Source: Modestobacter roseus
GTDB lineage: Bacteria > Actinomycetota > Actinomycetes > Mycobacteriales > Geodermatophilaceae
NCBI RefSeq assembly: GCF_007994135.1
Contig: NZ_VLKF01000001.1
Span: forward strand, 1,798,001-1,862,000
Length of the DNA stretch: 64,000 nt
Direction of reading: 5' to 3'
Both the position numbers and the translations under genes were made by a program. Positions 36,026-54,646 of this stretch are shown here, one piece after another; the first letter of the stretch is position 1; the number at the start of each line of letters is the position of its first letter. The notes beneath the pieces are model-generated. The model was not told the DNA's origin, did no database searches, and saw nothing but the letters and a program-made list of their open reading frames with translations.

Positions 36026-37711
36026 TCAGGACAGGATGCCCAGCAACGACCTGATCGTCGGCGGGCGTGTCCTCGCCACCCCGGCCAGCGCCTCGTCCAG
36101 CCGCGGCAGCTCACCCGGGGGCACCAGGTCGGGCCGGACCAGGGAGATGGTGCGCGGTGAGTGCGACCGTCGTGCGCCCACGATGGGCGGCACACCGGCG
36201 AACACCCCGGCTCGGTCGGCCTCCCACAGGTCGAGGAGCCCCGCGCAGTGGCGGTCCACGACCTCCCTCGCCGTCGCGTCGGCAGCGAGGTCGGCCATCG
36301 ACGCGTCGACGCTCCAGCGCTCGCCGCGGCGGTCGGTGGCGGCCCAGTCGCCCCACGGGCTGTCCACCACCCCGAGTGGCTCGTTCACCTCGTAGTAGTG
36401 GGCCACCTCGTGGACCTCCAGCAGGCGGTCGCCGGACGGGAAGTCGTCGCCCGTGCGCTGCAGCCACGCGTCGAGCTCCTCCTCGGCCCACGCCTGCACG
36501 TCCGCGTACGCCGGGTCGCCGCACCGGTTGCTCAGCTGAAAGGGATCTGTCTCCAGGTCGTACAGCAACCACGGTCCGGCGGAGCTGCGCACGTAGACGT
36601 AACGGGCGTTCCGGACGCCGCGGTACGCGGCGAACCCGTGCGACCGCATGGTGGAGAACGGGATGGGAGCGGTCAGCAGCGCGGTCGCCGGCCGGTCAGC
36701 GGCCGGCGAGGAGAAGTCGATGCCCTGCAGGCCGGCGGGCACCGGCACCCCGGCCAGGCCGAGCAGGGTGGGCATCAGGTCGGGCGAGTTCACCAGCGCT
36801 GAGTCCGTGCCGGTGCGCCGGCGGTCGGGGAACCGGACGAACAGTGGGACCCGCACGGCCTCCTCCCAGGGGCAGAGCTTGTGCTCGAGCCCCTGCGAGC
36901 CGGCCATGTCGCCGTGGTCGGAGGTGAAGACGACGATCGTGTCGTCGGCCAGGCCGGTGCGCGCCAGGCAGCTGAGCAGCTCCGCGACGCAGTCGTCGAC
37001 GGCGGCGATCTGTGCGTGGTAGCCGCGCAGCTCCGCGAGAGCCGCCTCCCGGAGATCGTCGGGCACGTTCGGCCGCACCTCGAGTTCGGCGTCCCGGTAC
37101 ATCGCCTTGTACCGCTCGGGCACCCCTCGGTAGGGGAAGTGCGGTGGCCCGTAGGCCACGGTCAGGAAGAACGGCTCGGATCGATCGACCCGGTCCCGGA
37201 GGTACCCGCAGGCGTGCTCGGTCTGGGCGAACGCGTCGTACCCCGCCCACTGCCGCGGGGTGGGGTCGTCGCCCTGGTAGTAGGTCGAGGAGTTGTACTC
37301 GTGGGTGCACTCCCCCGCCGCCCAGTACTGGTAGCCGAGGCGCGCCTCGGGCGGGACGAAGTCCTCGCGCCGCTCGCACAGGCCCTGCGGACTGCCGTAC
37401 AGGTGCCACTTGCCGATGTACCCGGTGGCGTACCCGGCCTCCGCGAAGGTGCCCGCGAGAGTGGGCCCTGCGGTGCGCACCGGGACGTCGTTGACGACCA
37501 CCCCGTGCGTCGGCGAGTACTGCCCGGTCATGATGCTGGCGCGCGCCGGGCAGCAGATCGGGTGGCCGGAGACGGCTTGGTCGTACACCACGCTCTCGGC
37601 GGCCAGCGCGTCCAGCGCCGGGGTCCGGGCGTTGGGGTCGCCGGTGCTGCCGAGCGCCTGGTGGCGCAGCTCGTCGACCAGGACCAGCAGGACGTTCGGA
37701 CGGTCCGGCAT
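36026..37711 (-). CDS. Cys-type sulfatase, probably cytoplasmic
   Basis: 561 residues of the alkaline-phosphatase-fold sulfatase family. The N-terminus RPNVLLVLVDELRHQALGST starts the fold with the metal-binding Asp. The C-x-P-x-R signature is CCPAR in GHPICCPARASIM; its first Cys would be converted to formylglycine. TSDHGDMAGSQG carries further metal ligands. No signal peptide or membrane segment is present, so it should act inside the cell. ATG at 37711 with GGAG five bases upstream; an ATG at 37774 overlapping the GH78 stop is an alternative. It is last in the importer-rhamnosidase operon and probably removes sulfate from imported sugars. Confidence 0.9.
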   Translation of the reverse strand: MPDRPNVLLVLVDELRHQALGSTGDPNARTPALDALAAESVVYDQAVSGHPICCPARASIMTGQYSPTHGVVVNDVPVRTAGPTLAGTFAEAGYATGYIGKWHLYGSPQGLCERREDFVPPEARLGYQYWAAGECTHEYNSSTYYQGDDPTPRQWAGYDAFAQTEHACGYLRDRVDRSEPFFLTVAYGPPHFPYRGVPERYKAMYRDAELEVRPNVPDDLREAALAELRGYHAQIAAVDDCVAELLSCLARTGLADDTIVVFTSDHGDMAGSQGLEHKLCPWEEAVRVPLFVRFPDRRRTGTDSALVNSPDLMPTLLGLAGVPVPAGLQGIDFSSPAADRPATALLTAPIPFSTMRSHGFAAYRGVRNARYVYVRSSAGPWLLYDLETDPFQLSNRCGDPAYADVQAWAEEELDAWLQRTGDDFPSGDRLLEVHEVAHYYEVNEPLGVVDSPWGDWAATDRRGERWSVDASMADLAADATAREVVDRHCAGLLDLWEADRAGVFAGVPPIVGARRSHSPRTISLVRPDLVPPGELPRLDEALAGVARTRPPTIRSLLGILS

Positions 37712-37770
37712 GCGTGCTCCAGTGGTCGGGAGGATGGTGGTCTCGTCCCGCCCTGACAGGTCGGACCAGC

Positions 37771-40392
37771 TCATCCGGGGTGGTCGACCCGGAAGCCGTG
37801 CCGACCGGGGCCCACGACGACCGGCGCCCAGCCGGCCACGGGGAGGGTGACCCGCGCCGAGCAGCCCACCGGGACGAGGACCTCCACCCCGAGCACGCCG
37901 TCGTCGATGCGCCAGGCGACCTCCGCCAGCCCGTACGGCGTCTCGTGCCCGGTGCGCGCCCAGGTGATGCCGCCACCCGGCCGCGGATGCACCTCCAGGT
38001 GCCGGTAGCCCGGGGACGCGGGCGCCAGGCCGCCCAGCACCCGGTGCACCCAGTCGGCCACCGCACCGAGGGCGTAGTGGTTGAAGGAGGTCATGGTGCC
38101 CGGGTTGATCCGGCCGTCGGGCAGCATGCTGTCCCACCGCTCCCAGATGGTGGTCGCCCCCATCGTCACCGGGTAGAGCCAGGACGGGCACTCGGTCTGC
38201 CGCAGCAGGGCGTAGGCGTCCTCGAGGGCACCGGCCTCGGTGAGGGCGTCCAGCACCAGGGGCGTGCCGAGGAACCCCGTGGCGATCCGGTGGCGCCGCT
38301 CCCGGACGACCCCGACCAGCCGCTCCCCTGCCCGCTCTCGGTGAACCGGGTCGGGGAGGAGGCCGAAGATCAGGGCCAGGGCGTGCCCGGTCTGCGTGTC
38401 GCCCGCCACCTCACCATCCGCGCCGACGAACTCCCGCTGCCACGCGCCGGTGACCCGGTCGGCGAGGTCGCCGTAGCGGGCGGCGTCGTCGCGCTCCCCC
38501 AGCAGCCCGGCGATCCGGGCCAGCAGGCGGGCGCTGTGCGCCCGGTACGCGGTGGCGACCAGCACCGTGTCGGTGGCGGCCAGCGCGGGCCGGTCCGGCG
38601 GCGCGGTGGGGTCCAGCCAGTCGCCGAGCTGCTGCTCGGGCAGGTCCCACAGCAGCTGGTCGCCCAGCCGGACGGTGACCCCGTCGACCCAGCGGCACAT
38701 GCTGCCGTACTGCCGCCGCAGCACCGCCAGGTCATCGAACCGCTGGTAGAGCACCCAGGGGACGATCACCGCGGCGTCGCCCCAGCCCGCCTGGGCACGC
38801 GCGTACTTGGCCAGGAAGCTGCCCGGCTCGAGCTCGACGTACGGGACGAACACCGGCACCGTGCCGTCCGGCTCCTGGTCCGCGGCGAGGTCCTGCAGCC
38901 AGGAGGTGAGCAGTCCGGCACAGTCGTGGAGGTGGGCGGCCGTCGGGGCGAAGACCTGGACGTCGCCGGTCCAGCCCAGCCGCTCGTCCCGCTGGGGGCA
39001 GTCGGTGGGGACGTCGACGAAGTTGCCGCGCATGCTCCACACGACGTTCTCGTGCAACCGGTCGAGCAGCGGGTCCGAACAGCTGAACCAGCCGGTGCGG
39101 GCCAGGTCGCTGGAGTGGACGACCGCGGTGACGGCCGTCGGGTCGAACGCCCCCGGCCAGCCCTGCACCTCGGCGTAGCGGAACCCGTGCAGGGTGAACC
39201 GGGGCTCCCACACCTCCTCGCCGCCACCGCGCAGCACGTAGGTGTCGGTGGCGCGCGCGGTGTTCAGCGGCCGTACCCCCAGCTCGCCGTCCTCCAGCAC
39301 CTCCGCGTGCCGCAGCTGCACCCGCGTGCCGGCCGGTCCGGTCACCCGGATCCGCAGTCGGCCGGCGACGTTCTGCCCGAAGTCGAGCAACAGCGCACCG
39401 GACGGCGAGCGCAGCACCTCGGCGACCGGCAGCTCCGCGACTGCGCGCACCGGCGGCCCCTCGGGCGCCACCAGGGTCGCCGGGTCGCGGACGCCCACCC
39501 CGCACGGCACCCAGCCGTCGTCGTCCCCGCCCGGGCTCGACCAGCCGGCGCGCTCCGCGGTGGCGTCGTGCCACTCCCCCTCGTAGAGGTCGGCCGCGCG
39601 CACCGGCCCGGGCGCCGTCGACCAGGTCCCGTCGGTCGCCACGACGACGCTCCGTCCGCCGGCCAGCGTCACCTCCAACTGCGCGAGCAGCCCCAGCCGG
39701 TCGCCGTACACGGCCCGGCGGCCGGGGTGGGGGGTCAGCCGGCCGCGGTACCACCCGTCGGCGACCGTCGCCCCGATCACGTTGTCCCCGGCCCGGAGCA
39801 GGGAGGTGACGTCGTGCGTCCGGTAGCGCAGCCGCGTGCCGTAGCTGGTCCAGCCGGGCGCCAGCGTCTCGTCGGCGACCCGGACCCCGTTGAGCTCGGC
39901 CTCGTGCACCCCGTGGGACGTGATGTGCAGACGGGCGGACTCCACCGGTCCCGGCAGGGTGAACCCCCGGCGGAACAGCGGGGCGCCACCCTCGGCGTCG
40001 AACGGTGAGGTGATCAGCCGGGCCGACCAGTCGGCGGGGTCCAGCAACCCGGTCTCCACCCGCACCGGGTCACTCCAGCCCGAGACGCCGCCGTCGGCCC
40101 CCGTCACGCGCACCTGCACCGACCGCGCCTCGCGGGAGTCGAGCGGTGCGCCCGGCCACGGCACCAGGACCGATTCGGCCGAGTCGACCCGATCGATCGT
40201 GGCCCGGCCCGCCTGGTCGACGACGCGCAGCTCGTACCCGGCCTGCACCCACCCGTCGGGCGCACGGACCACCTGCCAGGACAGTCGCGGTCGCCGCTCC
40301 CCCACCCCGAGCGCGTCGCGGTGGTGCTCGAACCGCACGGCCGACACCTCCACGGCGCCGTCCGCTCCCGGGTGCTGCTGCCCCGCCGTCAC
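37771..40392 (-). CDS. GH78 alpha-L-rhamnosidase, probably cytoplasmic
   Basis: 873 residues with the GH78 layout: N-terminal beta domains (to about 340), the (alpha/alpha)6 catalytic domain, and a C-terminal beta domain. The catalytic region shows VDVPTDCPQRDERLGWTGDV with the general acid Glu, GDWLDPTAP, ATTIWERWDSM with the base Glu, and SFNHYALGAVADW. It removes terminal L-rhamnose by inversion. No signal peptide is seen, so the substrate must be imported. GTG start overlapping the ATPase stop by four bases; it belongs to the importer operon. Confidence 0.95.
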   Translation of the reverse strand: MTAGQQHPGADGAVEVSAVRFEHHRDALGVGERRPRLSWQVVRAPDGWVQAGYELRVVDQAGRATIDRVDSAESVLVPWPGAPLDSREARSVQVRVTGADGGVSGWSDPVRVETGLLDPADWSARLITSPFDAEGGAPLFRRGFTLPGPVESARLHITSHGVHEAELNGVRVADETLAPGWTSYGTRLRYRTHDVTSLLRAGDNVIGATVADGWYRGRLTPHPGRRAVYGDRLGLLAQLEVTLAGGRSVVVATDGTWSTAPGPVRAADLYEGEWHDATAERAGWSSPGGDDDGWVPCGVGVRDPATLVAPEGPPVRAVAELPVAEVLRSPSGALLLDFGQNVAGRLRIRVTGPAGTRVQLRHAEVLEDGELGVRPLNTARATDTYVLRGGGEEVWEPRFTLHGFRYAEVQGWPGAFDPTAVTAVVHSSDLARTGWFSCSDPLLDRLHENVVWSMRGNFVDVPTDCPQRDERLGWTGDVQVFAPTAAHLHDCAGLLTSWLQDLAADQEPDGTVPVFVPYVELEPGSFLAKYARAQAGWGDAAVIVPWVLYQRFDDLAVLRRQYGSMCRWVDGVTVRLGDQLLWDLPEQQLGDWLDPTAPPDRPALAATDTVLVATAYRAHSARLLARIAGLLGERDDAARYGDLADRVTGAWQREFVGADGEVAGDTQTGHALALIFGLLPDPVHRERAGERLVGVVRERRHRIATGFLGTPLVLDALTEAGALEDAYALLRQTECPSWLYPVTMGATTIWERWDSMLPDGRINPGTMTSFNHYALGAVADWVHRVLGGLAPASPGYRHLEVHPRPGGGITWARTGHETPYGLAEVAWRIDDGVLGVEVLVPVGCSARVTLPVAGWAPVVVGPGRHGFRVDHPG

Positions 40393-41270
40393 GGGGCGGC
40401 CTGGTCCAGCGCCGGCCAGTCGTCCTGCTGGAGCAGGCGCCGCCGCTCGTCGCGGCGGGCGGCCTGCCGCACCGGGTCGGCCACCGGAGCCGCCATCTGC
40501 AGCCGCTGGGTGTACGGGTGGTGCGGTGCGTCGGAGACCTGGGCGGCGGTTCCGACCTCCACCAGCTCGCCGTGCCAGAGCACCGCGATGCGGTGGCTCA
40601 CCGCCCGGACCACCGCCAGGTCGTGGGTGATGAAGAGGTAGGAGACCTCCGTCCGCTGCTGGATCTCCAGCAGCAGGTCGAGGATGCGTGCCTGGGTCGA
40701 CAGGTCCAGCGCGCTGGTCGGCTCGTCGCAGATGATCAGCTTGGGCGACAGCGCCAGGGCCCGGGCGATCGCGATCCGCTGCCGCTGGCCACCGGAGAAC
40801 TCCCGGGCCAGCCGGGAGCCGGCGTCGGCGGGCAGGTGCACCGCGTCCAGCAGCTCACGCACCGTCTCCCGGCCCGTCCTGACCCCGTTGGCCAGCAACG
40901 GCTCGGACAGCACGTCCTCGATCGTCATCGCCGGGTTGAGCGAGGAGTACGGGTCCTGGAAGACCACCTGCACGTCCCGCGCCATCGAGCGCCGCTGGGC
41001 GCGGCTGAGCCGACCGATGTCCCTGCCCTCGAACAGCACCTGCCCCGCGGAGACCGGGGCGAGCCCGAGGACGGCCCGGCCCAGCGTGGTCTTGCCCGAG
41101 CCGGACTCACCCACCAGCCCCACGGTCTCGCCGCGGGCCACGTCGAGCGACACGCCCTTGATGACCTGCGCCGGCGGGCGGCGGAACCCGCGCACCGGGT
41201 AGCTCACGTGCAGGTCGCGCACGGACAGCAGGGGTTCGGCTCCCGCGCCGGGAGCGGGCCCGGCGTTCAC
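40389..41270 (-). CDS. ABC transporter ATP-binding protein (OppF/DppF-type)
   Basis: 293 residues. Walker A GESGSGKTT, Q-loop VFQDPYSSLNP, signature FSGGQRQRIAIARAL, Walker B LIICDEPTSALD and H-loop FITHDLAV. The C-terminal HHPYTQRLQMAAPVADP is the oligopeptide-family extension. It powers import with the fused permease-ATPase upstream. GTG start overlapping the upstream stop. Confidence 0.93.
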   Translation of the reverse strand: MNAGPAPGAGAEPLLSVRDLHVSYPVRGFRRPPAQVIKGVSLDVARGETVGLVGESGSGKTTLGRAVLGLAPVSAGQVLFEGRDIGRLSRAQRRSMARDVQVVFQDPYSSLNPAMTIEDVLSEPLLANGVRTGRETVRELLDAVHLPADAGSRLAREFSGGQRQRIAIARALALSPKLIICDEPTSALDLSTQARILDLLLEIQQRTEVSYLFITHDLAVVRAVSHRIAVLWHGELVEVGTAAQVSDAPHHPYTQRLQMAAPVADPVRQAARRDERRRLLQQDDWPALDQAAP

Positions 41271-43081
41271 CGGCCGCCCGTCGCCGGCGCCAGGGGCGCA
41301 CGCAGCTGGCCGCGGTCGAGCGTGGAGCCCAGCAGCATCTGCGTGTACTCGTGCTCCGGAGCCGCGAACAGCTCCCGCACGGGCCTGGTCTCCACGATCC
41401 GCCCCTCCTTCATCACGCTCACCCGGTCGCAGATGTCCGCGACGACGCCCAGGTTGTGGGTCACCAGCACCATCCCGAGGTCCCGTTCCCGTTGCAGTTC
41501 CCGCAGCAGCTCGAGGACGTCGGCCTGCACGGTCACGTCCAGCGCCGTCGTCGGCTCGTCGGCGATGATCAGCTCCGGCTCACCGGCCAGGGCGCCGGCG
41601 ATGAGCACCCGCTGGGCCATGCCCCCGGACACCTGGTGCGGGTACAGGTCGAAGGCGCCACGCGGGTCCCGGATGCCGACCCGGTCCAGCAGGGCCACCA
41701 GCTCCTCCTTCGCCTGCCGCCGGCTGACGTCGGTGACCGCCCGGAGGCCGTGGGTGAGCTGCTGGCCGATGGTGAACGTCGGGTCGAGGTTGGTCATCGG
41801 CTCCTGCGGCACGTAGCCGATGCGCCTGCCCCGGGCGTCCCGCAGCGCGGCGGGGTCACCGACGAGGTCCCGTCCGGCGAACTCGATCCGCCCGGCCAGG
41901 ACCACCGCCTCCCGCGGCAGGATGCCGAGGATCGAGTAGGCGATCTGGGACTTGCCCGAGCCGGACTCCCCCACCAGCCCGTGCACCTCGCCACGCTCGA
42001 CCGCCAGGTCCACCCCGTGCACCACCTCGCGCACCGAGGTGGCCGAGTCCGGGTAACCGACGACCAGGCCGCGGACCTGCAGCAGCGGTGCGGGTGCCGC
42101 GGGGCCGGCTGCCGTCTGCGCGTCCGGGCCCGGGGCGGCCGGGGGCGTCTGGCGGGCGGCGCGCAGCCGCCGGACGACGTCCTCGGGCAGCGGTCCGGGG
42201 CGGGAGGCGGACGCCTGCAGCGTGTCGCGCAGCACGTTGCCCAGCAGGACCAGAGCGATCGTGGTGACGCCGATCAGCAGCGCGGGCCAGAGCACGTTGG
42301 ACCGGGCCACGTAGATGTTGTTGAAGGCGGCCTCGAGCATGCCGCCCCAGGACGGCTCCCCCGGGCTGCCCAGGCCCAGGAACTCCAGCATCGCCTGGAT
42401 GGAGATGCCGATGGCCAGCACGAAGGCGCTCTGCACGACGATCGGCCCGCGGACGGCGCGCAGGACGTGGCGCGAGATGATCCGGGTGTCGGAGAGCCCG
42501 GCCACCTGCGCCGCGTCGACGTACAGCTCCTTGCGGACGTTGCGGACCAGCGAGCGGACCAGCCGGAAGAAGCCCGGCGCCACGAGCACCCCGAAGGCGG
42601 CCATGGCGAGCAGGATCGACGGGCCGATCACGGTGTACAGCGCGATGAGCAGGACCAGTCCCGGCGCGGCCAGGACGATGTCGGACACCCAGTTGGCGAC
42701 CGCGTCCACCTTGCCGCCGAAGTAGCCGGCGAGCAGCCCACCGGTCACCCCCAGCAGCAGGGAGACCAAGAGCACGACCGAGATCGCCTGCAGGGTCCCC
42801 GTCGTCGCGACCAGCAGGCGGGAGAGCACGTCGCGCCCGGACTGGTCACCGCCGAGCAGGAAGTCGCTGGTGAACGGCGGGGCGTTGGTCAGCTCCAGCC
42901 GGCTGGCGTTCGGGTCGAACGGCGCCAGCCAGGGGGCGAGCAGGCCGGCCAGCACGACCAGCAGGAGGACCACCGAGCAGACCAGGCCGACGGGGTTGGT
43001 CAGCACGCGGCGCAGCAGTCCCCGCGGGGTCGGCTCGGCGGGGGCGGTCTCCTGGGGTTCCAGGACCGGGACCGTGCTCAT
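41267..43081 (-). CDS. Fused ABC permease (DppC-type) and ATPase (DppD-type)
   Basis: 604 residues. The first 290 or so are a DppC-type permease with about six helices and the EAA-like loop (YVDAAQVAGLSDTRIISRHV). After a Pro/Ala linker (about 295-320) comes a complete ATPase: GESGSGKSQIAYSILG, VPQEPMTNLDP, VSGGMAQRVLIAGALAG, LIIADEPTTALD and LVTHNLGV. Such fusions occur in actinobacterial peptide/opine/nickel-family importers. ATG overlaps the upstream permease stop (ATGA); GTGA links it to the next ATPase. Confidence 0.94.
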   Translation of the reverse strand: MSTVPVLEPQETAPAEPTPRGLLRRVLTNPVGLVCSVVLLLVVLAGLLAPWLAPFDPNASRLELTNAPPFTSDFLLGGDQSGRDVLSRLLVATTGTLQAISVVLLVSLLLGVTGGLLAGYFGGKVDAVANWVSDIVLAAPGLVLLIALYTVIGPSILLAMAAFGVLVAPGFFRLVRSLVRNVRKELYVDAAQVAGLSDTRIISRHVLRAVRGPIVVQSAFVLAIGISIQAMLEFLGLGSPGEPSWGGMLEAAFNNIYVARSNVLWPALLIGVTTIALVLLGNVLRDTLQASASRPGPLPEDVVRRLRAARQTPPAAPGPDAQTAAGPAAPAPLLQVRGLVVGYPDSATSVREVVHGVDLAVERGEVHGLVGESGSGKSQIAYSILGILPREAVVLAGRIEFAGRDLVGDPAALRDARGRRIGYVPQEPMTNLDPTFTIGQQLTHGLRAVTDVSRRQAKEELVALLDRVGIRDPRGAFDLYPHQVSGGMAQRVLIAGALAGEPELIIADEPTTALDVTVQADVLELLRELQRERDLGMVLVTHNLGVVADICDRVSVMKEGRIVETRPVRELFAAPEHEYTQMLLGSTLDRGQLRAPLAPATGGR

Positions 43082-44019
43082 GACACCCTCGCTCGCGGGT
43101 TGATCCAGCCGTTGACCACGTCGACCGCCGTGTTGACGACGACGACGACCAGGACGAAGAAGAGGACGACCCCCATCACCGTGGGGATGTCGCGTTGCAG
43201 GGCCGACGTCTGCGACAGCAGGCCCATGCCGGGCAGCGCGAAGATGCGCTCGATCACCACGACGCCACCCATCAGCTGGATGACCTGCAGCGAGAGGATC
43301 GTCAGCCCCGGACTGCCCGCGCTGCGCAGCGCGTGCCGGAAGACGACCATCCGCTCCGGGATGCCGCGGGCCCGGAGGGTGCGGACGAAGTCCTGGCCCA
43401 TCACGTCGATCATCGCGCCGCGGAACTGCTGGGCGGACTGGGCGACCGCACCGACCAGCACGGCGGTCACCGGGAGCACGAGCGACGAGGCCCACCCGCC
43501 CACGCTCTGGTCGGGCGAGACGTAACCGGTCGCGGGGAAGACCCCAAGCCAGATGGCGAAGAGGAACACCAGGGCGATCGCCACGATGAACCCGGGCACG
43601 GCCGTGCCGAGCACACCGGCGACCTGCAGGAACCGGTCGACCCAACCGCCCCGCACCGCGGCGGCCACGCCCATCAGCACGCTGAGGCCGGCGGTGAGCA
43701 GCATCGCGATGAGCACCAGAGCCAGGGTCACCGGGATCCGGGTGAGCAGCAGGTCGAGCACGGGCTCACCGGTGTAGTAGCTGGTGCCCAGGTCACCGGT
43801 GAGGGCGTCGCCCAGCCACTCGAGGTACTGCAGGACCACCGGCTGGTCCAGCCCCAGCGCGGCCACCCGGTCGGCGACCTGCTCCGGGGTGGCGTCCGCG
43901 CCGAGGACCTGCCGGGCGATCTCGGTGCCGTTGGCGAAGATGGCGCAGAAGACCAGCGCCGTCACCACGAGGGTCAGGACGACGCCGGCGAGCAGCTTGC
44001 GCCCGAGGTACTTGAACAT
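43078..44019 (-). CDS. ABC transporter permease (DppB-type)
   Basis: 313 residues with six membrane helices. FKYLGRKLLAGVVLTLVVTA starts the family; the EAA loop reads DFVRTLRARGIPERMVVFRH, and RIFALPGMGLLSQTSALQRD is the DppB C-terminal signature. It pairs with the fused DppC domain to form the channel. It lies 87 bp after the binding-protein gene, with a strong hairpin between them. Confidence 0.93.
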   Translation of the reverse strand: MFKYLGRKLLAGVVLTLVVTALVFCAIFANGTEIARQVLGADATPEQVADRVAALGLDQPVVLQYLEWLGDALTGDLGTSYYTGEPVLDLLLTRIPVTLALVLIAMLLTAGLSVLMGVAAAVRGGWVDRFLQVAGVLGTAVPGFIVAIALVFLFAIWLGVFPATGYVSPDQSVGGWASSLVLPVTAVLVGAVAQSAQQFRGAMIDVMGQDFVRTLRARGIPERMVVFRHALRSAGSPGLTILSLQVIQLMGGVVVIERIFALPGMGLLSQTSALQRDIPTVMGVVLFFVLVVVVVNTAVDVVNGWINPRARVS

Positions 44020-44099: not shown

Positions 44100-44106
44100 G
44101 ACCGGG

Positions 44107-45733: not shown

Positions 45734-45745
45734 TGAAACGTTCAA
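45734..45745. promoter_or_regulatory. LacI-type operator of importer operon
   Basis: TGAAACGTTCAA, with TGAA/TTCA arms around ACG. It lies 12 bp downstream of the predicted -10 box of the importer promoter. Eleven of twelve bases equal the site in front of rhaI. The LacI regulator at 50751 is the likely ligand-controlled repressor. Confidence 0.7.
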
Positions 45746-45757
45746 AACTCTTGACGC

Positions 45758-45787
45758 AGCTTATGTGTCCGCGACCACAGTGCGCAA
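45758..45787 (-). promoter_or_regulatory. Promoter of importer operon
   Basis: On the minus strand: -35 TTGCGC (45787-45782), an 18-bp spacer, and -10 TAAGCT (45763-45758), followed by GCG. The rhaI promoter has the same spacer and the same TAAGCTGCG, which supports both calls. The 167-bp gap 45697-45863 holds nothing else recognised. Confidence 0.6.
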
Positions 45788-45863
45788 TCCCGTTCGGCTT
45801 CGTTGCTGACTCGTGATCGAGCAGTCACCTCTTGGTACGTTCCAGTGCCGCGCCGCACCGGGC

Positions 45864-47336
45864 TCAGTCGTCCACCGCACCGTGCACGCGGCGTTCGGCC
45901 GCGTCCCAGCCGGCCGGGTCACCGGTGGGGCGGTAGGTCCGGGTCGCCTGGGTCTCCCGCAACAGTGCCCGCAGCTCGGGCAGCCCCCCGGCCAGCACGC
46001 CCGCGGCACGGGCCTGCACCAGCACGTTGCCCAGCGCCGCCGCCTCGACGGGGCCGGCGACCACCGGCAGCCCGCAGGCGTCGGCGGTCAGCTGGCAGAG
46101 CAGGGTGTTCCGCGCGCCACCACCCACCACGTGGACCACGTCGACGTCGCGGCCGGTCAGCCGCACCGCCTGTCGCACGGTGCGCCGGTGGGCCAACGCG
46201 AGACTGTCCAGGATGCAGCGCACGGTCTCGGCCTGGCTCGACGGCGGCGCCTGCCCGGTCTCGGCGCAGACCTCGGCGATCCGGGCCGGCACGTCTCCCG
46301 GCGGCAGGAAGCGTGCGTCGTCCGGGTCGACGACGGCGGTGAAGGCGGGCACCTGCGCGGCCGCGGCCAACAGCTCCGCCAGGTCGGCGGGCAGCCCGGC
46401 GGCGGCCCAGGTGCGCAGCGACTCCTGCAGCAGCCACAGTCCCATCACGTTGCGCAGGTACCGGACCGTGCCGTCGACGCCGAGCTCGTTGGTGAACCCG
46501 GCGACCCGGCTCGCGTCGGTGAGCACCGGCCGGATCAGCTCGACCCCGACCAGCGACCACGTGCCGCAGGAGACGTAGGCGAACCGGGCGCCGTGGGCGG
46601 GCACGCCGACGACCGCCGACGCGGTGTCGTGCGAGCCGACCGCGGTCACCGGCACCGGCCCGGTCAGCCCGGTCTCGGCCAACACCTCGGGGGAGAGCTC
46701 GCCGATCCGGTCCCCCGGGCGCACGAGCGGCGGGAAGAGGTGGCGGGGGAGCTCCAGCCGGTCGATCAGCCCCCAGGCCCACTCCCCCGTCGTGCTGTCC
46801 AGCAGCCCCGTCGTCGAGGCGTTGGTGACCTCGGCGCCGACCGAGCCGGTGAGCCAGTACGCCAGCAGATCAGGGACCAGCAGCGCGTGCCGAGCTCGCC
46901 CGAACCCGGCCCGCCGGCGCATCGCGGCCAGCTGGAACACCGTGTTGAACGGCAGGTGCTGCAGGCCGTTGACCCGGTACAGCTCCCCCGGGCCGGCAAC
47001 CGCGTGCACGGTCGGCACCGCCGTGGCGTGCCGGGCGTCCCGGTAGTGCACCGGGTTGCCCAACAGCTCGCCGTCGGCGTCGAGCAGGCCGATGTCGACC
47101 GCCCAGCTGTCGATGCCCACGCCGTCCAGCCTGCCCGCGGCGCGCAGCCCGTCCAGCACCCCTGCGTAGAGGCCGAGGACGTCCCAGTGCAGCGTGCCCG
47201 CGGCGCGCACCGGCCGGTTGGGGAACCGGTGCACCTCGCGCAGGTCCAGCTGCCCGGGCGCGACCCGCGCGACCATGACCCGGCCGCTGGAGGCGCCCAG
47301 GTCGACGGCGGCCAGGGTCAGCTCGCCCGCGGTCAC
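45864..47336 (-). CDS. rhaB: Rhamnulokinase
   Basis: 490 residues of the FGGY kinase family, phosphorylating L-rhamnulose at C1. The N-terminal phosphate loop AAVDLGASSGRVMVA, the RhaB-specific GIDSWAVDIGLLDADGELLG with NPVHYRD, and the hinge NGLQHLPFNTVFQL identify it. The second ATP-site part is VGSHDTASAVVGVP and HVVGGGARNTLLCQLTADAC. GTG start overlapping the aldolase stop by four bases. It is the third gene of the rhaI operon. Confidence 0.95.
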   Translation of the reverse strand: MTAGELTLAAVDLGASSGRVMVARVAPGQLDLREVHRFPNRPVRAAGTLHWDVLGLYAGVLDGLRAAGRLDGVGIDSWAVDIGLLDADGELLGNPVHYRDARHATAVPTVHAVAGPGELYRVNGLQHLPFNTVFQLAAMRRRAGFGRARHALLVPDLLAYWLTGSVGAEVTNASTTGLLDSTTGEWAWGLIDRLELPRHLFPPLVRPGDRIGELSPEVLAETGLTGPVPVTAVGSHDTASAVVGVPAHGARFAYVSCGTWSLVGVELIRPVLTDASRVAGFTNELGVDGTVRYLRNVMGLWLLQESLRTWAAAGLPADLAELLAAAAQVPAFTAVVDPDDARFLPPGDVPARIAEVCAETGQAPPSSQAETVRCILDSLALAHRRTVRQAVRLTGRDVDVVHVVGGGARNTLLCQLTADACGLPVVAGPVEAAALGNVLVQARAAGVLAGGLPELRALLRETQATRTYRPTGDPAGWDAAERRVHGAVDD

Positions 47337-49369
47337 CGCAGGAAGGCGGCGGCCACGCCGGAGTCGACCGGGACGTGCAGCCCCGTCGTCCGGGTGAGCT
47401 CGCCGCCGGTCAGCGCGAAGACGGCGTCGGCGACGTGGTCGGGCAGCACCTCGCGCTTGAGCAGGGTGCGCTGGGCGTAGAACTGGCCCAGCTCCTCCTC
47501 CGGGACGCCGTAGACCGCGGCCCGCTTGGCGCCCCAGCCACCGGCGAAGATCCCCGAGCCACGGACGACGCCGTCGGGGTTGATGCCGTTGACCCGGATC
47601 TGGTGCTCGCCGAGCTCGGCCGCCAGCAGCCGCACCTGGTGGGCCTGGTCGGCCTTGGTCGAGGAGTAGGCGATGTTGCTCGGGCCGGCGAAGACCGCGT
47701 TCTTGCTGGAGATGTAGACGACGTCGCCGCCCATGCCCTGCTCGATCATGATCCGGGCCGCCTCGCGGGAGACCAGGAACGAGCCCTTGGCCATCACGTC
47801 GTGCTGCAGGTCCCAGTCGGCCTCGGTGGTCTCCAGGAGCGGCTTGGAGATCGACAGCCCGGCGTTGTTGACCACCAGGTCGACCCCGCCGAAGGCGAGC
47901 ACGGCCGCCCGGAACGCCGCGGCCACCGCCTCGGCGTCGCTGACGTCGGCCGCCACGCCCACCGCGACGTCGGCCGAGCCGATCTCCGCCGCGGCCTCGG
48001 TGGCCTTGCCCAGGTCCAGGTCGGCGACGACGACGCACGCGCCCTCGGCGGCCAGCCGCTGGGCGATCGCCTTGCCGATCCCGCTCGCCGCACCGGTGAC
48101 CAGCGCGACCCGGGTGGCCAGCGGCTCGGGCTTCGGCATCCGGGCGAGCTTGGCCTCCTCCAGCGCCCAGTACTCGATCCGGAACTTCTCGCTCTCGTCT
48201 ATCGGCGCGTAGGTGGAGACCGCCTCGGCACCGCGCATCACGTTGATCGCGTTGACGTAGAACTCCCCCGCCACGCGGGCGGTCTGCTTGTTCGCGCCGA
48301 AGCTGAACATGCCGACGCCGGGCACGAGCACGATCGCCGGGTCCGCCCCGCGCATCGGTGGGGAGTCCGGGCTCGCGTGCCGCTCGTAGTAGGCCGCGTA
48401 GTCGGCGCGGTAGGCCTCGTGCAGCTCCCGCAGCCGGGCGACGACGTCCTCGACCGGCGCGGACGCCGGCAGGTCGACCACCAGTGGGCGGACCTTGGTG
48501 CGCAGGAAGTGGTCGGGGCAGGAGGTGCCCAGCGCGGCCAGCCGCGGGTGCTCGGCCGACGCCAGGAAGTCCAGCACGACGTCGGAGTCGGTGAGGTGCC
48601 CGACCTGCGGCTTGTCGGTGCTCGCCAGCCCGCGCACGACGGGGAACAGCGCGGCCGCCTTGGCCCGGCGCTCGGCTTCCGGCAGCGCCTCGTAGCCGGG
48701 CAGCGGCGCACCGAAGGGCTGCGGGCGGCCGCGCTCGGCGAGGAACTGCTCCGCCGTCCGGATGATCTCCAGCGAGTTGGCCTCGCACTCCTCGCTGGTG
48801 TCGGCCCAGGCGGTGATGCCGTGGCCGCCCAGGACGGCCCCGATGGCCTGCGGGTTCTGCTCCGCGATCTCCGCGATGTCCAGGCCGAGCTGGAAGCCGG
48901 GACGGCGCCACGGCACCCAGACCACGCGGTCGCCGAAGCACTCCCGGGTCAGCGCCTCACCGTCGGCGGCGGTGGCCAGCGCGATGCCGGAGTCGGGGTG
49001 CAGGTGGTCGACGTGCGCGGCGCGGACCAGCCCGTGCATCGCGGTGTCGATGGACGGCGCAGCGCCGCCCCGGCCGAACGCGCAGTGGTCGAACGCGGCG
49101 ACCATCTCGTCCTCGCGGTCGACGCCGGGGTAGACCGCGACCAGCGAACGCAGCCGGTCCAGCCGGAGCACGGCCAGGCCGCCCTCCTGCAGCGTGCCGA
49201 GGTCACCGCCGGAGCCCTTCACCCAGAGCAGCTCGACCGGCTGCCCGGTCACCGGGTCGATGTCGGTGCCGACTGCGGAGGTGTTGCCGCCGGCGTAGTT
49301 GGTGTTCCGCGGGTCCGCGCCGAGGCGGTTCGAGCGGGCGAGCAGGTCACTGACCACGGGGTTCGTCAT
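47333..49369 (-). CDS. rhaEW: Bifunctional rhamnulose-1-phosphate aldolase/lactaldehyde dehydrogenase
   Basis: 678 residues. The first 415 or so are a class II aldolase/adducin domain with zinc ligands in VDHLHPDSG and VLGGHGITAW. From about 420 follows a short-chain dehydrogenase: LVTGAASGIGKAIAQRLAAE, NNAGLS, and the Tyr-Lys pair in NIAYSSTKAD. The aldolase makes dihydroxyacetone phosphate and L-lactaldehyde; the dehydrogenase oxidises lactaldehyde to L-lactate. This fusion is known from Bacillus subtilis YuxG and Chloroflexus. ATG start with GGAGG upstream. Confidence 0.94.
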   Translation of the reverse strand: MTNPVVSDLLARSNRLGADPRNTNYAGGNTSAVGTDIDPVTGQPVELLWVKGSGGDLGTLQEGGLAVLRLDRLRSLVAVYPGVDREDEMVAAFDHCAFGRGGAAPSIDTAMHGLVRAAHVDHLHPDSGIALATAADGEALTRECFGDRVVWVPWRRPGFQLGLDIAEIAEQNPQAIGAVLGGHGITAWADTSEECEANSLEIIRTAEQFLAERGRPQPFGAPLPGYEALPEAERRAKAAALFPVVRGLASTDKPQVGHLTDSDVVLDFLASAEHPRLAALGTSCPDHFLRTKVRPLVVDLPASAPVEDVVARLRELHEAYRADYAAYYERHASPDSPPMRGADPAIVLVPGVGMFSFGANKQTARVAGEFYVNAINVMRGAEAVSTYAPIDESEKFRIEYWALEEAKLARMPKPEPLATRVALVTGAASGIGKAIAQRLAAEGACVVVADLDLGKATEAAAEIGSADVAVGVAADVSDAEAVAAAFRAAVLAFGGVDLVVNNAGLSISKPLLETTEADWDLQHDVMAKGSFLVSREAARIMIEQGMGGDVVYISSKNAVFAGPSNIAYSSTKADQAHQVRLLAAELGEHQIRVNGINPDGVVRGSGIFAGGWGAKRAAVYGVPEEELGQFYAQRTLLKREVLPDHVADAVFALTGGELTRTTGLHVPVDSGVAAAFLR

Positions 49370-49388: not shown

Positions 49389-50561
49389 TCACGCGCCCCA
49401 GGAGGCCTGCTGGCCTCCGACGCGCTCGGTGGCGATCTGCTCCTGGTGCCCGGACGCGGCGTAGGCGCGGTAGGGGTCACCGGCCAGGCCCTGCGACTCG
49501 CGCAGCTCGGCGAGCAGCGGGCGGACGTCGGTGTTGTAGGCGTCCATCAGCGCCGCGTTGGCGCCGAGCACGTCACCGGACTGCTGGGCGGCCCGCAGCG
49601 CCTCACGGTCGACCAGCAGCGCCTTGGCGGTGGCCTCCTGCACGTTCATCACCGAGCGGATCTGGCCGGGGATCTTCGGCTCGATGTTGTGGCACTGGTC
49701 GAGCATGAAGTTGACGCCGGAGTCCGGGCGGAGCGCGTCGGCCCGGACGATCTCGTTCATGATCCGGAACAGCTGGAACGGGTCGGCCGCGCCCACGATC
49801 AGGTCGTCGTCGCCGTAGAAGCGGGAGTTGAAGTCGAAGGCGCCGAGCCGGCCGACCCGCAGCAGCTGGGCGACGATGAACTCGATGTTGGTGTTCGGCG
49901 CGTGGTGGCCGGTGTCGAGGACCACCTTCGCCTGCTCGCCCAGGGCCAGGCAGTGCAGCAGCGAAGTGCCCCAGTCGGGGACGTCCATCGTGTAGAAGTA
50001 CGGCTCGTAGAGCTTGTACTCGAGGATCAGCCGGTGCTCGGGGTCCAGCTCGGCGTAGATCCGCTGCAGCGACTCGGCCAGCCGGTCCTGCCGGTCGCGG
50101 ATGTCGTCCTGACCCGGGTAGTTCGTACCGTCGGGCAGCCAGATCTTCAGGTCGGTCGAACCGGTGGCCCGCATGACGTCGATGCACTGCACGTGGTGGG
50201 CGACCGCCTTGGCCCGCACCGCCGGGTCGGCGTGGGTCAGCGAGCCGAGCTTGTACTCGTCGTCCTGGAACAGGTTCGAGTTGATCGCGCCGATGGCCAC
50301 GCCCTCGTCGGCGGCGTGCTGCGCCAGCTTGCCGAAGTCGTCGACCAGGTCCCACGGGACGTGCAGCGAGACCCGCGGTGCCGCGCCGGTGTACCGGTGC
50401 ACCACGGCGGCGTCGCTGATCTTCTCGAACGGGTCCCGCGGGACGCCGGGGGTGCTGAACACCTTGAACCGGGTGCCCGCGTTGCCGAAGGCCCACGACG
50501 GGAGCTCGATGGTCTGCCGGCCCAGCGCGGCGAGGGCGCGGGAACGCAGGTCGTCCTGCAC
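49389..50561 (-). CDS. rhaI: L-rhamnose isomerase (RhaI type)
   Basis: 390 residues, a TIM-barrel isomerase turning L-rhamnose into L-rhamnulose. It belongs to the RhaI type found in Gram-positives and Pseudomonas, not the E. coli RhaA type. Landmarks: RFKVFSTPGVPRDPFEKISD, LKIWLPDGTNYPGQ, LEYKLYEPYFYTMDVPDWG, VVLDTGHHAPNTNIEF and AFDFNSRFYGDDDL with metal-binding Glu, Asp and His residues. GTG start. First gene of the rhaI-rhaEW-rhaB operon, divergent from the LacI regulator. Confidence 0.95.
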   Translation of the reverse strand: MQDDLRSRALAALGRQTIELPSWAFGNAGTRFKVFSTPGVPRDPFEKISDAAVVHRYTGAAPRVSLHVPWDLVDDFGKLAQHAADEGVAIGAINSNLFQDDEYKLGSLTHADPAVRAKAVAHHVQCIDVMRATGSTDLKIWLPDGTNYPGQDDIRDRQDRLAESLQRIYAELDPEHRLILEYKLYEPYFYTMDVPDWGTSLLHCLALGEQAKVVLDTGHHAPNTNIEFIVAQLLRVGRLGAFDFNSRFYGDDDLIVGAADPFQLFRIMNEIVRADALRPDSGVNFMLDQCHNIEPKIPGQIRSVMNVQEATAKALLVDREALRAAQQSGDVLGANAALMDAYNTDVRPLLAELRESQGLAGDPYRAYAASGHQEQIATERVGGQQASWGA

Positions 50562-50617: not shown

Positions 50618-50631
50618 ATGAAACGTTCCAT
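50618..50631. promoter_or_regulatory. LacI-type operator in rhaI promoter
   Basis: ATGAAACGTTCCAT is a near-perfect palindrome with a central CG, the hallmark of LacI-family sites. It lies 16 bp downstream of the predicted rhaI -10 box, so a bound repressor would block transcription. It shares TGAAACGTTCMA with the site at 45734. Confidence 0.78.
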
Positions 50632-50646
50632 AGGCGGGTGTGGCGC

Positions 50647-50676
50647 AGCTTACGAACGGCCGCGCTAGGCTGTCAA
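50647..50676 (-). promoter_or_regulatory. Promoter of rhaI operon
   Basis: Minus-strand -35 TTGACA (50676-50671), 18-bp spacer and -10 TAAGCT (50652-50647). The -35 matches consensus exactly. The rest of the divergent gap 50562-50750 holds the operator and the leader of the LacI gene. Confidence 0.68.
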
Positions 50677-50750
50677 TCGACCGACCGGCAAGCTGTTGAG
50701 ACGATTCACGCGCTTCGCCGCCTCGCGCCACCCGCCGATCGGAGGACCCC

Positions 50751-51785: not shown

Positions 51786-51798
51786 GCGGAGGTCCCAG

Positions 51799-52563
51799 GT
51801 GAAGATCTCGCTCTTCGCCACCTGCCTGGTGGACACGATGACGCCGTCGGTGGCGGCGGCCACCGCGGCGCTGCTACAACGCCTCGGCCAGGACGTCGTC
51901 GTCCCGCCGACGCAGGCCTGCTGCGGTCAGATGCACGTCAACACCGGCTACCGGCGCGAGGCGGTGTCCATCGTCGCCAACCACGTGCGCGCCTTCGCGG
52001 GCGCCGAGGTGATCGTCGCGCCGTCCGGCTCGTGCGTCGCCTCGATCCACCACCAGCAGGCCGCCGTCGCCCGGCGTGCCGGCGACGAGGCGCTGGCGCA
52101 GGCCGCCGAGGAGCTGGCCGGCCGCACCTACGAGCTGTCCCAGTTCCTGGTCGACGTGCTCGGGGTGACCGACGTCGGCGCCTACTACCCGCACCGGGTC
52201 ACCTACCACCCGACCTGCCACTCGCTGCGGATGCTCGGGGTCGGCGACCGGCCACTGCAGCTGCTGCGCGCGGTGCGCGGGCTGGAGCTGGTCGAGCTGC
52301 CCCGCGCCGACCAGTGCTGCGGGTTCGGCGGCACCTTCGCGGTGAAGAACGCCGACACCTCGACCGCGATGCTCACCGACAAGATGGCCGACGTGCTCGG
52401 CACGCACGCCGAGGTGTGCACCGCCGGTGACGCCTCCTGCCTGATGCACATCGGCGGCGGGCTCTCCCGGCTGCGCGCCGGCACCCGCACCGTGCACCTG
52501 GCCGAGATCCTCGCCGCCACCGAGCACGACCAGGCGCTGGTCACCGGGACGGTGACGTCGTGA
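51799..52563 (+). CDS. lutA: Lactate utilisation protein A (Fe-S oxidoreductase subunit)
   Basis: 254 residues with two cysteine-rich CCG domains: TQACCGQMHVNTGYR and ADQCCGFGGTFAVK, with further Cys in SGSCVAS and HPTCHS. LutA, LutB and LutC form the iron-sulfur complex that oxidises L-lactate to pyruvate in bacteria such as B. subtilis. GTG start with GGAGG upstream. It directly follows the LacI gene and overlaps lutB, so it is probably part of the rhamnose response. Confidence 0.92.
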   Translation: MKISLFATCLVDTMTPSVAAATAALLQRLGQDVVVPPTQACCGQMHVNTGYRREAVSIVANHVRAFAGAEVIVAPSGSCVASIHHQQAAVARRAGDEALAQAAEELAGRTYELSQFLVDVLGVTDVGAYYPHRVTYHPTCHSLRMLGVGDRPLQLLRAVRGLELVELPRADQCCGFGGTFAVKNADTSTAMLTDKMADVLGTHAEVCTAGDASCLMHIGGGLSRLRAGTRTVHLAEILAATEHDQALVTGTVTS

Positions 52564-54020
52564 CCGCGACGTTCCTCGGCCTGCCGACGGCCCCCCGGGG
52601 GGTCGGCCACCTGCGCGGCGACGAGTCCTTCCCCGACGCCGCGCGCGGCGCCCTGCGCGACGGGCAGCTGCGGGCCAACCTCGGCCACGCGACGAGCACC
52701 ATCCGGGGCAAGCGGGCACGGCTGGTGGCCGAGGTGCCCGACTGGGCACAGCTGCGCGCCGCCGGCAAGGCGATCAAGGCCGCCACCATGGCCCGGCTCG
52801 ACGACCACCTCGAGGAGCTCGAACGCCAGGTCACCGCCCGCGGCGGCGTCGTCCACTGGGCCCGCGACGCCCACGAGGCCAACGAGATCGTCACCCGGCT
52901 GGTGCGTGCGACCGGCACGACCGAGGTGGTCAAGGTCAAGTCGATGGCCACCCAGGAGATCGGCCTCAACGAGGCCCTCGAGGCGGCCGGGCTCGACGTC
53001 TTCGAGACCGACCTGGCCGAGCTGATCGTGCAGCTGGGCGAGGACGAGCCCTCGCACATCCTGGTGCCGGCGATCCACAAGAACCGGGCCGAGATCCGGG
53101 AGATCTTCGCCCGCACCATCCCGGGGGTCGACCCGGGCCTGACCGACGACCCCCGCCAGCTGGCGATGGCCGCCCGGGAACACCTGCGCGAGCGGTTCCT
53201 GCGCGCCCGGGTCGCGGTCAGCGGCGCGAACTTCGCCGTCGCCGAGACCGGCACGCTCACCGTGGTGGAGAGCGAGGGCAACGGGCGGATGTGCCTGACC
53301 CTCCCGGAGACGCTGATCACCGTGATGGGGATCGAGAAGGTGGTGCCCACGTGGCGCGACCTGGAGGTCTTCCTGCAGCTGCTCCCCCGCTCCTCCACCG
53401 GCGAGCGGATGAACCCGTACACCTCCACCTGGGCCGGGGTGACGCCCGGCGACGGCCCGCAGGAGTTCCACCTGGTGCTGCTGGACAACGGCCGGACGGC
53501 GGTGCTCGCCGACGAGGTGGGCCGGGAGGCGCTGCACTGCATCCGCTGCTCCGCGTGCCTGAACGTGTGCCCGGTCTACGAGCGGGCCGGCGGCCACGCC
53601 TACGGCTCGGTGTACCCCGGCCCGATCGGCGCGGTGCTCAGCCCGATGCTCACCGGCGTCGAGGACAACGCCTCGCTGCCCTACGCGTCCTCGCTCTGCG
53701 GCGCCTGCTACGAGGTCTGCCCGGTGGCGATCGACATCCCCTCGATCCTGGTGCACCTGCGCGCCGAGCACGTCGAGGCGCAGGATCGGCCGACGGCCGA
53801 GGGGATGGCGTTCAAGGCCCTGGGCAGGGCGATGTCGCACCCGTGGCTGTGGCACCTCACCCAGCGGGCGGCCCGGCTGGGACGCCTGGTCGCCCGAGGG
53901 CGGGCGACGCTGCCCAACGCGTTCCCACCGCCTGTCTCCGGGTGGACCCGCAGCCGCGACCTGCCCACGCCGCCGGCGAGGACGTTCGTGCAGCAGTGGA
54001 CCGAGGAGCACCGGCAGTGA
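52560..54020 (+). CDS. lutB: Lactate utilisation protein B (Fe-S)
   Basis: 486 residues. A LutB/LldF fold with VKVKSMATQEIGLNEALEAA and SGANFAVAETGTLTVVESEG, then two 4Fe-4S motifs: CIRCSACLNVCPVY and CGACYEVCPVAIDIP. It passes electrons from lactate oxidation to the respiratory chain. GTGA overlaps at both ends join it to lutA and lutC. Confidence 0.94.
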   Translation: MTATFLGLPTAPRGVGHLRGDESFPDAARGALRDGQLRANLGHATSTIRGKRARLVAEVPDWAQLRAAGKAIKAATMARLDDHLEELERQVTARGGVVHWARDAHEANEIVTRLVRATGTTEVVKVKSMATQEIGLNEALEAAGLDVFETDLAELIVQLGEDEPSHILVPAIHKNRAEIREIFARTIPGVDPGLTDDPRQLAMAAREHLRERFLRARVAVSGANFAVAETGTLTVVESEGNGRMCLTLPETLITVMGIEKVVPTWRDLEVFLQLLPRSSTGERMNPYTSTWAGVTPGDGPQEFHLVLLDNGRTAVLADEVGREALHCIRCSACLNVCPVYERAGGHAYGSVYPGPIGAVLSPMLTGVEDNASLPYASSLCGACYEVCPVAIDIPSILVHLRAEHVEAQDRPTAEGMAFKALGRAMSHPWLWHLTQRAARLGRLVARGRATLPNAFPPPVSGWTRSRDLPTPPARTFVQQWTEEHRQ

Positions 54021-54646
54021 GCTCTCGCGAGGAGGTGCTGGGCCGGATCCGGACCGCGCTCGGCGAGACCCGGGCGCCCGTGCCGGAGGTGCGGCGCGAC
54101 TACCGCCGGGCGGAGGACTCGGCGACCGAGACCGCCCCGCTCGACCTGCTCGTCGAGCGGATCGAGGACTACCGCGCCGACGTGCTCCGCTGCGCGGCCG
54201 ACGACGTCGGGGCGACCGTCGCAGCCGCGCTCGACCGCGGGCTCGGTGCCGGCTGGACGACGTCCGGTGTCGTCGTCGCCCCCGGGCTGCCGGCGGCCTG
54301 GCGGCCGGCCGGCTGCGACGTCGACGACGAGCGCCCCGCCCCCGAGCTGGCCGAGCGCGCGGCGTCGGTAACCGCCGTTGCCGTGGCCATCGCCGAGACC
54401 GGCACGCTGGTGCTCGACGGCTCCCCCGCCTGCGGCCGGCGGGCGCTGTCGCTGCTGCCCGACGTGCTCGTCTGCGTGGTGACCGCCGACCAGGTCGTGT
54501 CCGGGGTGCCCGAGGGCATCGCCCGGCTGGACCCGCTGCGGCCGCTCACGATGATCAGCGGCCCGTCGGCGACCAGCGACATCGAGCTGGAGCGCGTCGA
54601 GGGCGTGCACGGACCGCGCAGCCTGCTCGTGGTCCTCGCCGACTGA
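54017..54646 (+). CDS. lutC: Lactate utilisation protein C
   Basis: 209 residues of the LUD domain family (LutC/YkgG). VAIAETGTLVLDGSPACGRR and LPDVLVCVVTADQVVSGVPE are the conserved core; the N-terminal REEVLGRIRTAL is typical. Third subunit of the lactate complex. GTG start overlapping the lutB stop. Confidence 0.9.
   Translation: MSSREEVLGRIRTALGETRAPVPEVRRDYRRAEDSATETAPLDLLVERIEDYRADVLRCAADDVGATVAAALDRGLGAGWTTSGVVVAPGLPAAWRPAGCDVDDERPAPELAERAASVTAVAVAIAETGTLVLDGSPACGRRALSLLPDVLVCVVTADQVVSGVPEGIARLDPLRPLTMISGPSATSDIELERVEGVHGPRSLLVVLAD

Follow-up and report, generated by a model that had tools for sequence, protein, structure and literature searches.

A candidate RhaR regulon in Modestobacter roseus joins a conserved rhamnose and lactate core to a lineage-specific importer, rhamnosidase and sulfatase operon

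A 64,000-nucleotide stretch of the Modestobacter roseus genome (C1:1798001-1862000, hereafter the window; 4.5-Mb genome, 99.8% complete) contains an 18.6-kb island for L-rhamnose catabolism at positions 36026-54646. The island comprises three transcription units, with rhaI-rhaEW-rhaB and an operon for an Opp-type ATP-binding cassette (ABC) importer, a glycoside hydrolase family 78 (GH78) α-L-rhamnosidase, and a sulfatase on the minus strand, and lacI, lutA, lutB, and lutC on the plus strand, divergent from rhaI. The comparative analysis indicated that a LacI-type repressor, RhaR, probably controls all three units, which together would take up a glycoside bearing rhamnose, release this sugar inside the cell, and convert it to dihydroxyacetone phosphate (DHAP) and pyruvate. 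The lacI-lut/rha core appears to be old and widespread in the family Geodermatophilaceae, with the importer-GH78-sulfatase operon as a late, lineage-specific addition.

Joint control is suggested by a palindromic operator with a 12-bp core. The search pattern TGRAACGTTYCA was derived from the palindrome TGAAACGTTCCA in the rhaI/lacI gap, and at one mismatch or fewer it matched four sites in the whole genome (two with the reversed-pattern control), which were the site at 50619, two sites in the importer promoter region, and one inside an open reading frame (ORF). The last of these, C1:2962162, was rejected as a regulon member owing to this position. At up to two mismatches, four sites were found in the window, all within the two promoter regions (50619 and 50697; 45734 and 45833). 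In the family survey of 112 genomes, 45 contained RhaI, and the lacI-rhaI region was read in all of these. In 42 of the 45, M. roseus included, the roughly 330 bp upstream of lacI held a site with no more than two mismatches to the consensus of the relatives, TGAAACGTTTCA; 32 genomes had two or more such sites, 10 had one, and three had none. Across the M. roseus genome, TGAAACGTTTCA at this threshold gave 14 sites, three of them in the island, and the control gave two. A search of 21 genomes (M. roseus and 20 chosen from the 45) at one mismatch or fewer returned 73 sites versus 15 for the reversed control, and hand assignment from coordinates placed 31 in rha/lac/lut promoters, seven at importer/glycosidase operons, and 35 elsewhere. 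One regulon over the three units is thus supported in silico. The first-pass annotation of this DNA had proposed a single regulon leading from rhamnoside uptake to pyruvate, and the operators in the rhaI/lacI and importer promoters support the shared control, while the rhamnoside specificity of the importer stays putative. Another sequence, CGCAGCTTA, is common to both regulated promoter regions (window 45755-45763 and 50644-50652), with starts 21 and 25 bp beyond the first base of an operator, and is possibly a common promoter element.

The operator also precedes importer and/or glycosidase operons in five of the 20 other genomes. An exact site lies before a CUT1-type-GH78-GH3 operon in genome G007. 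Further sites precede a GH3 gene in G028, a CUT1-type-GH78 operon in G086, and, in G078, a different operon of the order Opp-GH3-GH78-GH78; G084 has a look-alike of the G078 operon, with a site that directly adjoins or overlaps the start predicted for the binding protein. Since these operons differ from that of M. roseus but carry the same operator, the importers appear to be exchanged while the core and the operator stay. These operons bear on the alternative that the importer-GH78-sulfatase operon merely adjoins the rha-lut regulon and serves another substrate. Its distribution would fit such an arrangement, as it did not lie beyond rhaB in any of the 21 other genomes in which the far side of rhaB was covered (2 to 10 kb; 19 stretches plus G028 and G084), and the sulfatase is present in one of the 112 family genomes (no match at 1e-60 in the other 111) and in one of 396 phylum genomes (no match at 1e-70 in the other 395, with three candidates scored per genome in the rows listed). 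The breadth of the importer superfamily points the same way. Nevertheless, this alternative is unlikely, given that two of just four genome sites with at most one mismatch fall in the 167-bp importer promoter region, that GH78 enzymes release rhamnose, and that different GH78/importer operons carry the same operator in other genomes. The importer-GH78-sulfatase operon would instead have joined the RhaR regulon by carrying the operator.

The expectation of the first-pass annotation that the genes stay together in related genomes held for the core and failed for the importer operon. A lacI of the same kind accompanies rhaI in 45 of 45 genomes and is divergent from rha in all 44 in which the region was read as one stretch; in the remaining genome, G028, a GH78-CUT1-type operon lies between lacI and rhaI (L182, L183). 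Near lacI, lutB was found in 40 of the 45 genomes, following lacI in 39 of the 44 and lying about 6 kb away in G028. The five genomes without lutB beside the core include four without a lutB match at 1e-60 and a fifth with lutB on another contig. As the importer-GH78-sulfatase operon is not found after rhaB in the 21 other genomes covered there and the sulfatase is confined to one family genome, the island as a whole was rejected as a conserved unit. Looser linkage was seen in 12 of the 44 other rhaI genomes, where the contig with rhaI also carries a GH78 gene no more than 50 kb away (5 kb in G028 and 18-50 kb in the rest, distances assigned by hand); in 11 of these 12, a gene for an Opp-type binding protein with 28-42% identity to that of the window is nearby.

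LutABC could alternatively be a housekeeping lactate operon that borders rha by chance and has no functional part in rhamnose catabolism. LutB occurs in 73 of the 112 genomes, 41 of which also have RhaI, and such an operon would explain both its presence in 32 of the 67 genomes without rhaI and the five rhaI genomes in which it is not beside the core. However, lacI runs on into lutA in M. roseus over a gap of 13 bp, lutB stays near lacI in most rhaI genomes as described above, RhaEW makes L-lactate, and PMC3870299 reports the same rha-lut link for Actinomycetales and Rhodobacterales. Coincidental neighborhood is consequently an unlikely explanation, and a role of LutABC in rhamnose catabolism is preferred. 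The lut and rha genes of the island lie on either side of one divergent promoter region that holds operators, and they may be co-regulated. Four of the 32 genomes with lutB and without rhaI were examined, and in each of them both this lacI and the operator are missing next to lutABC.

Several points weigh against the proposed regulon and pathway. The number of sites in the window at up to two mismatches is not unusual (shuffle mean 1.5; 7 of 100 shuffles reach four); it is their placement, not their number, that is unusual. The search pattern came from the 50619 site, so this site is not independent; what counts as independent is that, of the three remaining genome sites, two, those of the importer, fall inside 167 bp. 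Single sites are weak evidence, as only the one in the M. roseus genome was inspected among the 35 sites elsewhere, and genome G109 has no site at one mismatch or fewer near its core. RhaB and the Opp proteins scored below the NCBIfam equivalog cut-offs, and their identity comes from best match, domain order, and synteny. The importer superfamily also carries peptides, nickel, and opines, the cytoplasmic location of GH78 and the sulfatase is a reading of their N-termini, and the 32 family genomes with lutB and without rhaI imply that LutABC also serves other lactate.

In the proposed mechanism, RhaR would repress the three units through TGRAACGTTYCA palindromes in the divergent rhaI/lacI promoter and the two before the importer operon. 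The Opp-type system (lipoprotein, OppB, OppCD, and OppF) would import the glycoside, on which the sulfatase and GH78 would act inside the cell. RhaI, RhaB, and RhaEW, assigned to families by profiles, would then yield DHAP and L-lactate according to the chemistry in the literature, and LutABC, whose family was likewise assigned by profiles, may convert L-lactate to pyruvate. The importer belongs to the peptide/nickel/opine (Opp) class (PF00496/PF00528), and not to the CUT1, CUT2, or rhiLFG types; the next best solute-binding protein in the family was 45% identical in a search that scored up to 12 candidates. The nearest GH78 relatives are 56-61% identical and sited in other operons, and the closest solved chain is 6gsz_A, over residues 14-869. 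The solved-structure searches gave no substrate for the module proteins. No signal peptide was seen by eye in the N-termini of GH78 or the sulfatase, and both enzymes are probably cytoplasmic, with the glycoside imported whole and trimmed inside.

The CCPAR motif of the sulfatase fits the Cys-type CxPxR active-site motif of S1 sulfatases. Of 163 confirmed sulfatase loci from other phyla, 80 were examined, many of them on short contigs, and the nearest relatives found were from Bryobacterales (52%), Nevskia (52%), and a KSB1 bacterium (45%). A GH78 gene was near the sulfatase in one of the 15 loci at 37-52% identity (L073-L086, L103), that of Ginsengibacter (L076), and the other 65 loci gave a single weak GH78 match (L107). 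With a sulfatase in the operon, the substrate is perhaps a sulfated rhamnoside, and the island provides a lead towards such compounds in a lineage whose other searched genomes gave no match to this enzyme. Plant glycosides are hinted at by G078, in which a related importer and GH78 stand next to C-glycoside-deglycosidase-like, GMC, and GFO/IDH/MocA genes.

Some relatives showed further genes around these systems. At L180:1453-16677 (G078), the related Opp importer and GH78 lie beside DUF5597/GH35-like, ROK, GFO/IDH/MocA, GMC, and C-glycoside-deglycosidase-like genes; L181 (G084) has a similar layout, of which the DUF5597 gene is the only one of those neighbors scanned. This layout looks like a plant C-/O-glycoside breakdown module. 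A GH106 rhamnosidase is encoded near GH78 and an Opp importer at L190:10189-13440 (G109). A second RhaSTPQ-like set (36-45%) in G028 runs into lutABC and has an operator before it (L182, L183). A second RhaEW-like aldolase-dehydrogenase, 65-66% identical and convergent to rhaB, was found at L053:10026-12071, L055:10825-12840, and L060:10923-12938, and in L053 its neighbors include a CUT2-type permease and a kinase resembling XylB. These genes are perhaps a sister pathway for another sugar. Between rhaEW and rhaB of G078, a 483-aa ORF (L066:11769-13220) has weak L-arabinose-isomerase-like domains below the Pfam cut-offs.

Two functions found in relatives are missing from M. roseus. Between lacI and rhaI, rhaM is present in 36 of 44 genomes and a rhaS-like gene in 20 of 44, while seven of 44, including the window, have neither. 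The reported absence of a rhamnose mutarotase gene was confirmed, as a whole-genome search with TIGR02625 returned nothing at E ≤ 1, and the same model detects RhaM of the relatives at about 1e-12. The reported lack of a dedicated rhamnose permease holds for RhaS, for which the sole genome match to TIGR02637 at 1e-10 was partial, its 43 bits lying below the cut-off of 342; no search was made for permeases of the RhaT and RhaY types. Judging from the relatives, rhaM and perhaps rhaSTPQ would have been lost in this lineage. Since neither RhaS nor RhaM was found in the genome, free rhamnose would enter by another route, perhaps the Opp importer, and mutarotate unaided.

The paired operators showed a recurrent spacing. 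Eighteen spacings, taken from 17 of the first 25 genomes and the importer promoter, were 78, 78, 87, 88, 89, 89, 90, 90, 99, 99, 103, 109, 110, 110, 111, 111, 112, and 112 bp, with the importer pair included though its distal site has three mismatches from the consensus. The best period was 11.0 bp (R 0.80), and a reduced set of 12, with one per genus and cluster, gave P = 0.0008 in a period scan of 8-15 bp. The period is not sharp, as 10.5 bp gives R 0.75 with a phase of 5.2, which puts the pairs half a turn out, and 11.05 bp gives a phase of 0.4, that is, whole turns. Before 20 further genomes were read, a rule was written whose strict form places spacings within 1.6 of 11.05k + 0.4. Fifteen of these genomes had pairs, with spacings of 88 (2), 89, 109 (2), 110 (4), and 111 bp (6); 13 of the 15 obeyed the strict rule and the two at 109 narrowly missed it, and 11 of 12 agreed after removal of three glimpsed earlier. 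This agreement is inflated by shared descent.

If the working helical repeat is about 11 bp, the whole turns suggest same-face binding and a looping repressor, as in the E. coli gal repressosome, in which a dimer of the GalR/LacI family loops the DNA between two operators roughly 110 bp apart. The 344-aa repressor ends soon after the sugar-binding domain, which presumably leaves too little space for a tetramer helix of the LacI type, and looping would then require a GalR-like mode. There is an even chance, however, that the 11-bp rhythm goes back to a small number of ancestral spacings and plays no part in looping. Related genomes do not count as independent, the phase hinges on the assumed helical repeat with nearly equal fits at 11.05 and 10.5 bp, the tetramer helix is presumably missing, and 13 of the 45 genomes have a single site or none. 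Descent is harder to reconcile with the recurrence of 78, 87-90, 99, and 109-112 bp across genera, with 103 as the single exception, with the scan result for the reduced set and the fit of later pairs to the pre-written rule, and with the 99-bp spacing of the importer promoter, which is not an orthologue. The spacing rhythm opens the way to a direct test of looping by a repressor of the GalR type.

The repressor gene has an unusual start codon. Of the 43 lacI genes, among 45, whose start region could be resolved, 26 have CTG, 17 have GTG, and none has ATG three codons before a conserved S-I-R-D (G-I-R-D in one gene), and 14 of the 26 CTG cases, that of the window included, have no ATG, GTG, or TTG between the CTG and the upstream in-frame stop. 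Beyond the window, CTG-start lacI genes are at L053-L065, L070, L182, L189, L192, L194, L196, L197, L202, L205, L208, L210, and L211. The window CTG is at 50751-50753, and an ORF list limited to ATG, GTG, and TTG starts lacI at 50859, losing the helix-turn-helix. A LacI without a DNA-binding domain, or a frameshifted one, was considered and rejected because the frame extends upstream to a CTG behind GGAGG, with CTG or GTG in the same column in relatives. With this conserved start, ORF calls limited to the three usual codons strip the DNA-binding domain from the repressor. The CTG start may also lower the repressor dose. A broader model, which we advance as speculative and rather improbable in its entirety, would make the RhaR of the family a looping repressor held at low dose by the CTG start, with import modules joining the regulon through a helically phased operator pair; here, the Opp-GH78-sulfatase module (99 bp, or nine turns of about 11 bp) would let a land actinobacterium take up intact sulfated rhamnosides and remove their sulfate and rhamnose within the cell.

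The genes listed by the first-pass annotation (rhaI, rhaEW, rhaB, importer, GH78, sulfatase, LacI, and lutABC) were upheld by profile matches, and all are intact, without internal stops, at the coordinates in Table 1. The curated cut-offs were passed by RhaI, RhaEW, and LutB. A gap of 19 bp separates rhaI from rhaEW, rhaEW and rhaB overlap by 4 bp, and 167 bp lie between rhaB and the gene for the solute-binding lipoprotein, whose start was set by sequence inspection at GTG 45696 behind GGAGG. The five genes for OppB, OppC-OppD, OppF, GH78, and sulfatase are linked by 4-bp overlaps. Directly past lutC, window positions 54963-57353 encode a 796-aa UvrA-like protein that scores below the UvrA cut-off and is shorter than the UvrA model.

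Table 1. Genes and candidate operators of the rhamnose island (window coordinates)
Feature	Position	Strand	Evidence
S1-type sulfatase, 582 aa	36026..37774	-	PF00884, 182 bits, positions 1-301 of 301; motif CCPAR; ATGA overlap with GH78 gene
GH78 α-L-rhamnosidase, 873 aa	37771..40392	-	Five rhamnosidase-type Pfam domains: PF17389, PF08531, PF05592, PF25788, PF17390
OppF-type ATPase	40389..41270	-	PF00005; NCBIfam Opp/Dpp/Gsi-type matches under equivalog cut-offs
OppC permease fused to OppD ATPase, one ORF, 604 aa	41267..43081	-	PF12911 + PF00528 + PF00005
OppB-type permease	43078..44019	-	PF19300 + PF00528
Solute-binding protein family 5	44107..45696	-	PF00496, 213 bits; lipoprotein-like signal AVAGC
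Operator, importer promoter, proximal	45734..45745		TGAAACGTTCAA
Operator, importer promoter, distal	45833..45844		TGGTACGTTCCA; 99 bp from proximal; 1 mismatch to TGRAACGTTYCA, 3 to TGAAACGTTTCA of relatives
rhaB, rhamnulokinase	45864..47336	-	Best match TIGR02627, 425 bits, under cut-off 528; synteny, 55-82% identity in relatives
rhaEW, rhamnulose-1-P aldolase/lactaldehyde dehydrogenase	47333..49369	-	NF006188, 1367 bits (cut-off 1152); TIGR02632, 1053 bits (above cut-off)
rhaI, L-rhamnose isomerase	49389..50561	-	TIGR02635, 595 bits, above cut-off 531
Operator, rhaI side	50619..50630		TGAAACGTTCCA; same site class in relatives
Operator, lacI side	50697..50708		TGAGACGATTCA; 78 bp from rhaI-side site
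lacI-family repressor (rhaR), 344 aa	50751..51785	+	PF00356 + PF13377; CTG start behind GGAGG
lutA	51799..52563	+	PF02754; C-terminal part of NF045670
lutB	52560..54020	+	TIGR00273, 473 bits, above cut-off 445
lutC	54017..54646	+	PF02589, LUD domain

The closest known system is the RhaR regulon of Actinomycetales described by Rodionova et al. (2013; PMC3870299). There, a LacI-type RhaR co-regulates rhamnose and rhamnoside genes, RhaEW yields L-lactate, lldD/lldEFG (lldEFG being lutABC) belong to the RhaR regulons of certain Actinomycetales and Rhodobacterales, and the pathway probably extends to pyruvate. The first-pass proposal of a route from RhaEW through LutABC to pyruvate is therefore supported but not new, since PMC3870299 draws the same inference for Actinomycetales RhaR regulons. 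The island shares with these regulons the LacI-family regulator, RhaEW, α-L-rhamnosidase, ABC importer, and lutABC, as well as a palindromic operator common to the regulated promoters, which is about 20 bp there and was searched with a 12-bp core here. It differs from them in its Opp-type importer, where several but not all of the published genomes have the rhiLFG type, in the added sulfatase, a word that does not occur in the main text of PMC3870299, and in the missing RhaM and RhaSTPQ. No publication on rhamnose and lactate utilization in Geodermatophil* was found, and the portions seen of the literature on actinobacterial rhamnosidase, sulfatase, ABC transporter, and rhamnose isomerase held no description of this island. 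The island combines a core that is already known with an importer half that is a variant specific to this lineage and carries the same operators.

The island resembles the gal repressosome in its GalR/LacI-family regulator and two spaced operators, and differs in the sugar and in that looping here would follow from spacing only. The five-part RtpEFGKL importer of Thermotoga maritima is also Opp-like. The RhaR regulon to which it belongs likewise consists of three transcription units, which hold rha genes together with those for glycoside hydrolases and an ABC importer and respond there to rhamnose by induction; unlike in the island, the regulator is of the DeoR type, and the available portion of the paper does not mention lactate oxidation genes (PMC3750489). 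Sulfated methyl-pentose degradation by marine Verrucomicrobiota, as described in PMC8857213, similarly places rhamnosidase genes amid sulfatases, with methyl-pentose catabolism downstream, but in another phylum, with microcompartment breakdown and many sulfatases versus one here. Set beside these systems, the M. roseus island offers a case of modular regulon growth, with a common core, an exchangeable importer, and the same operator.

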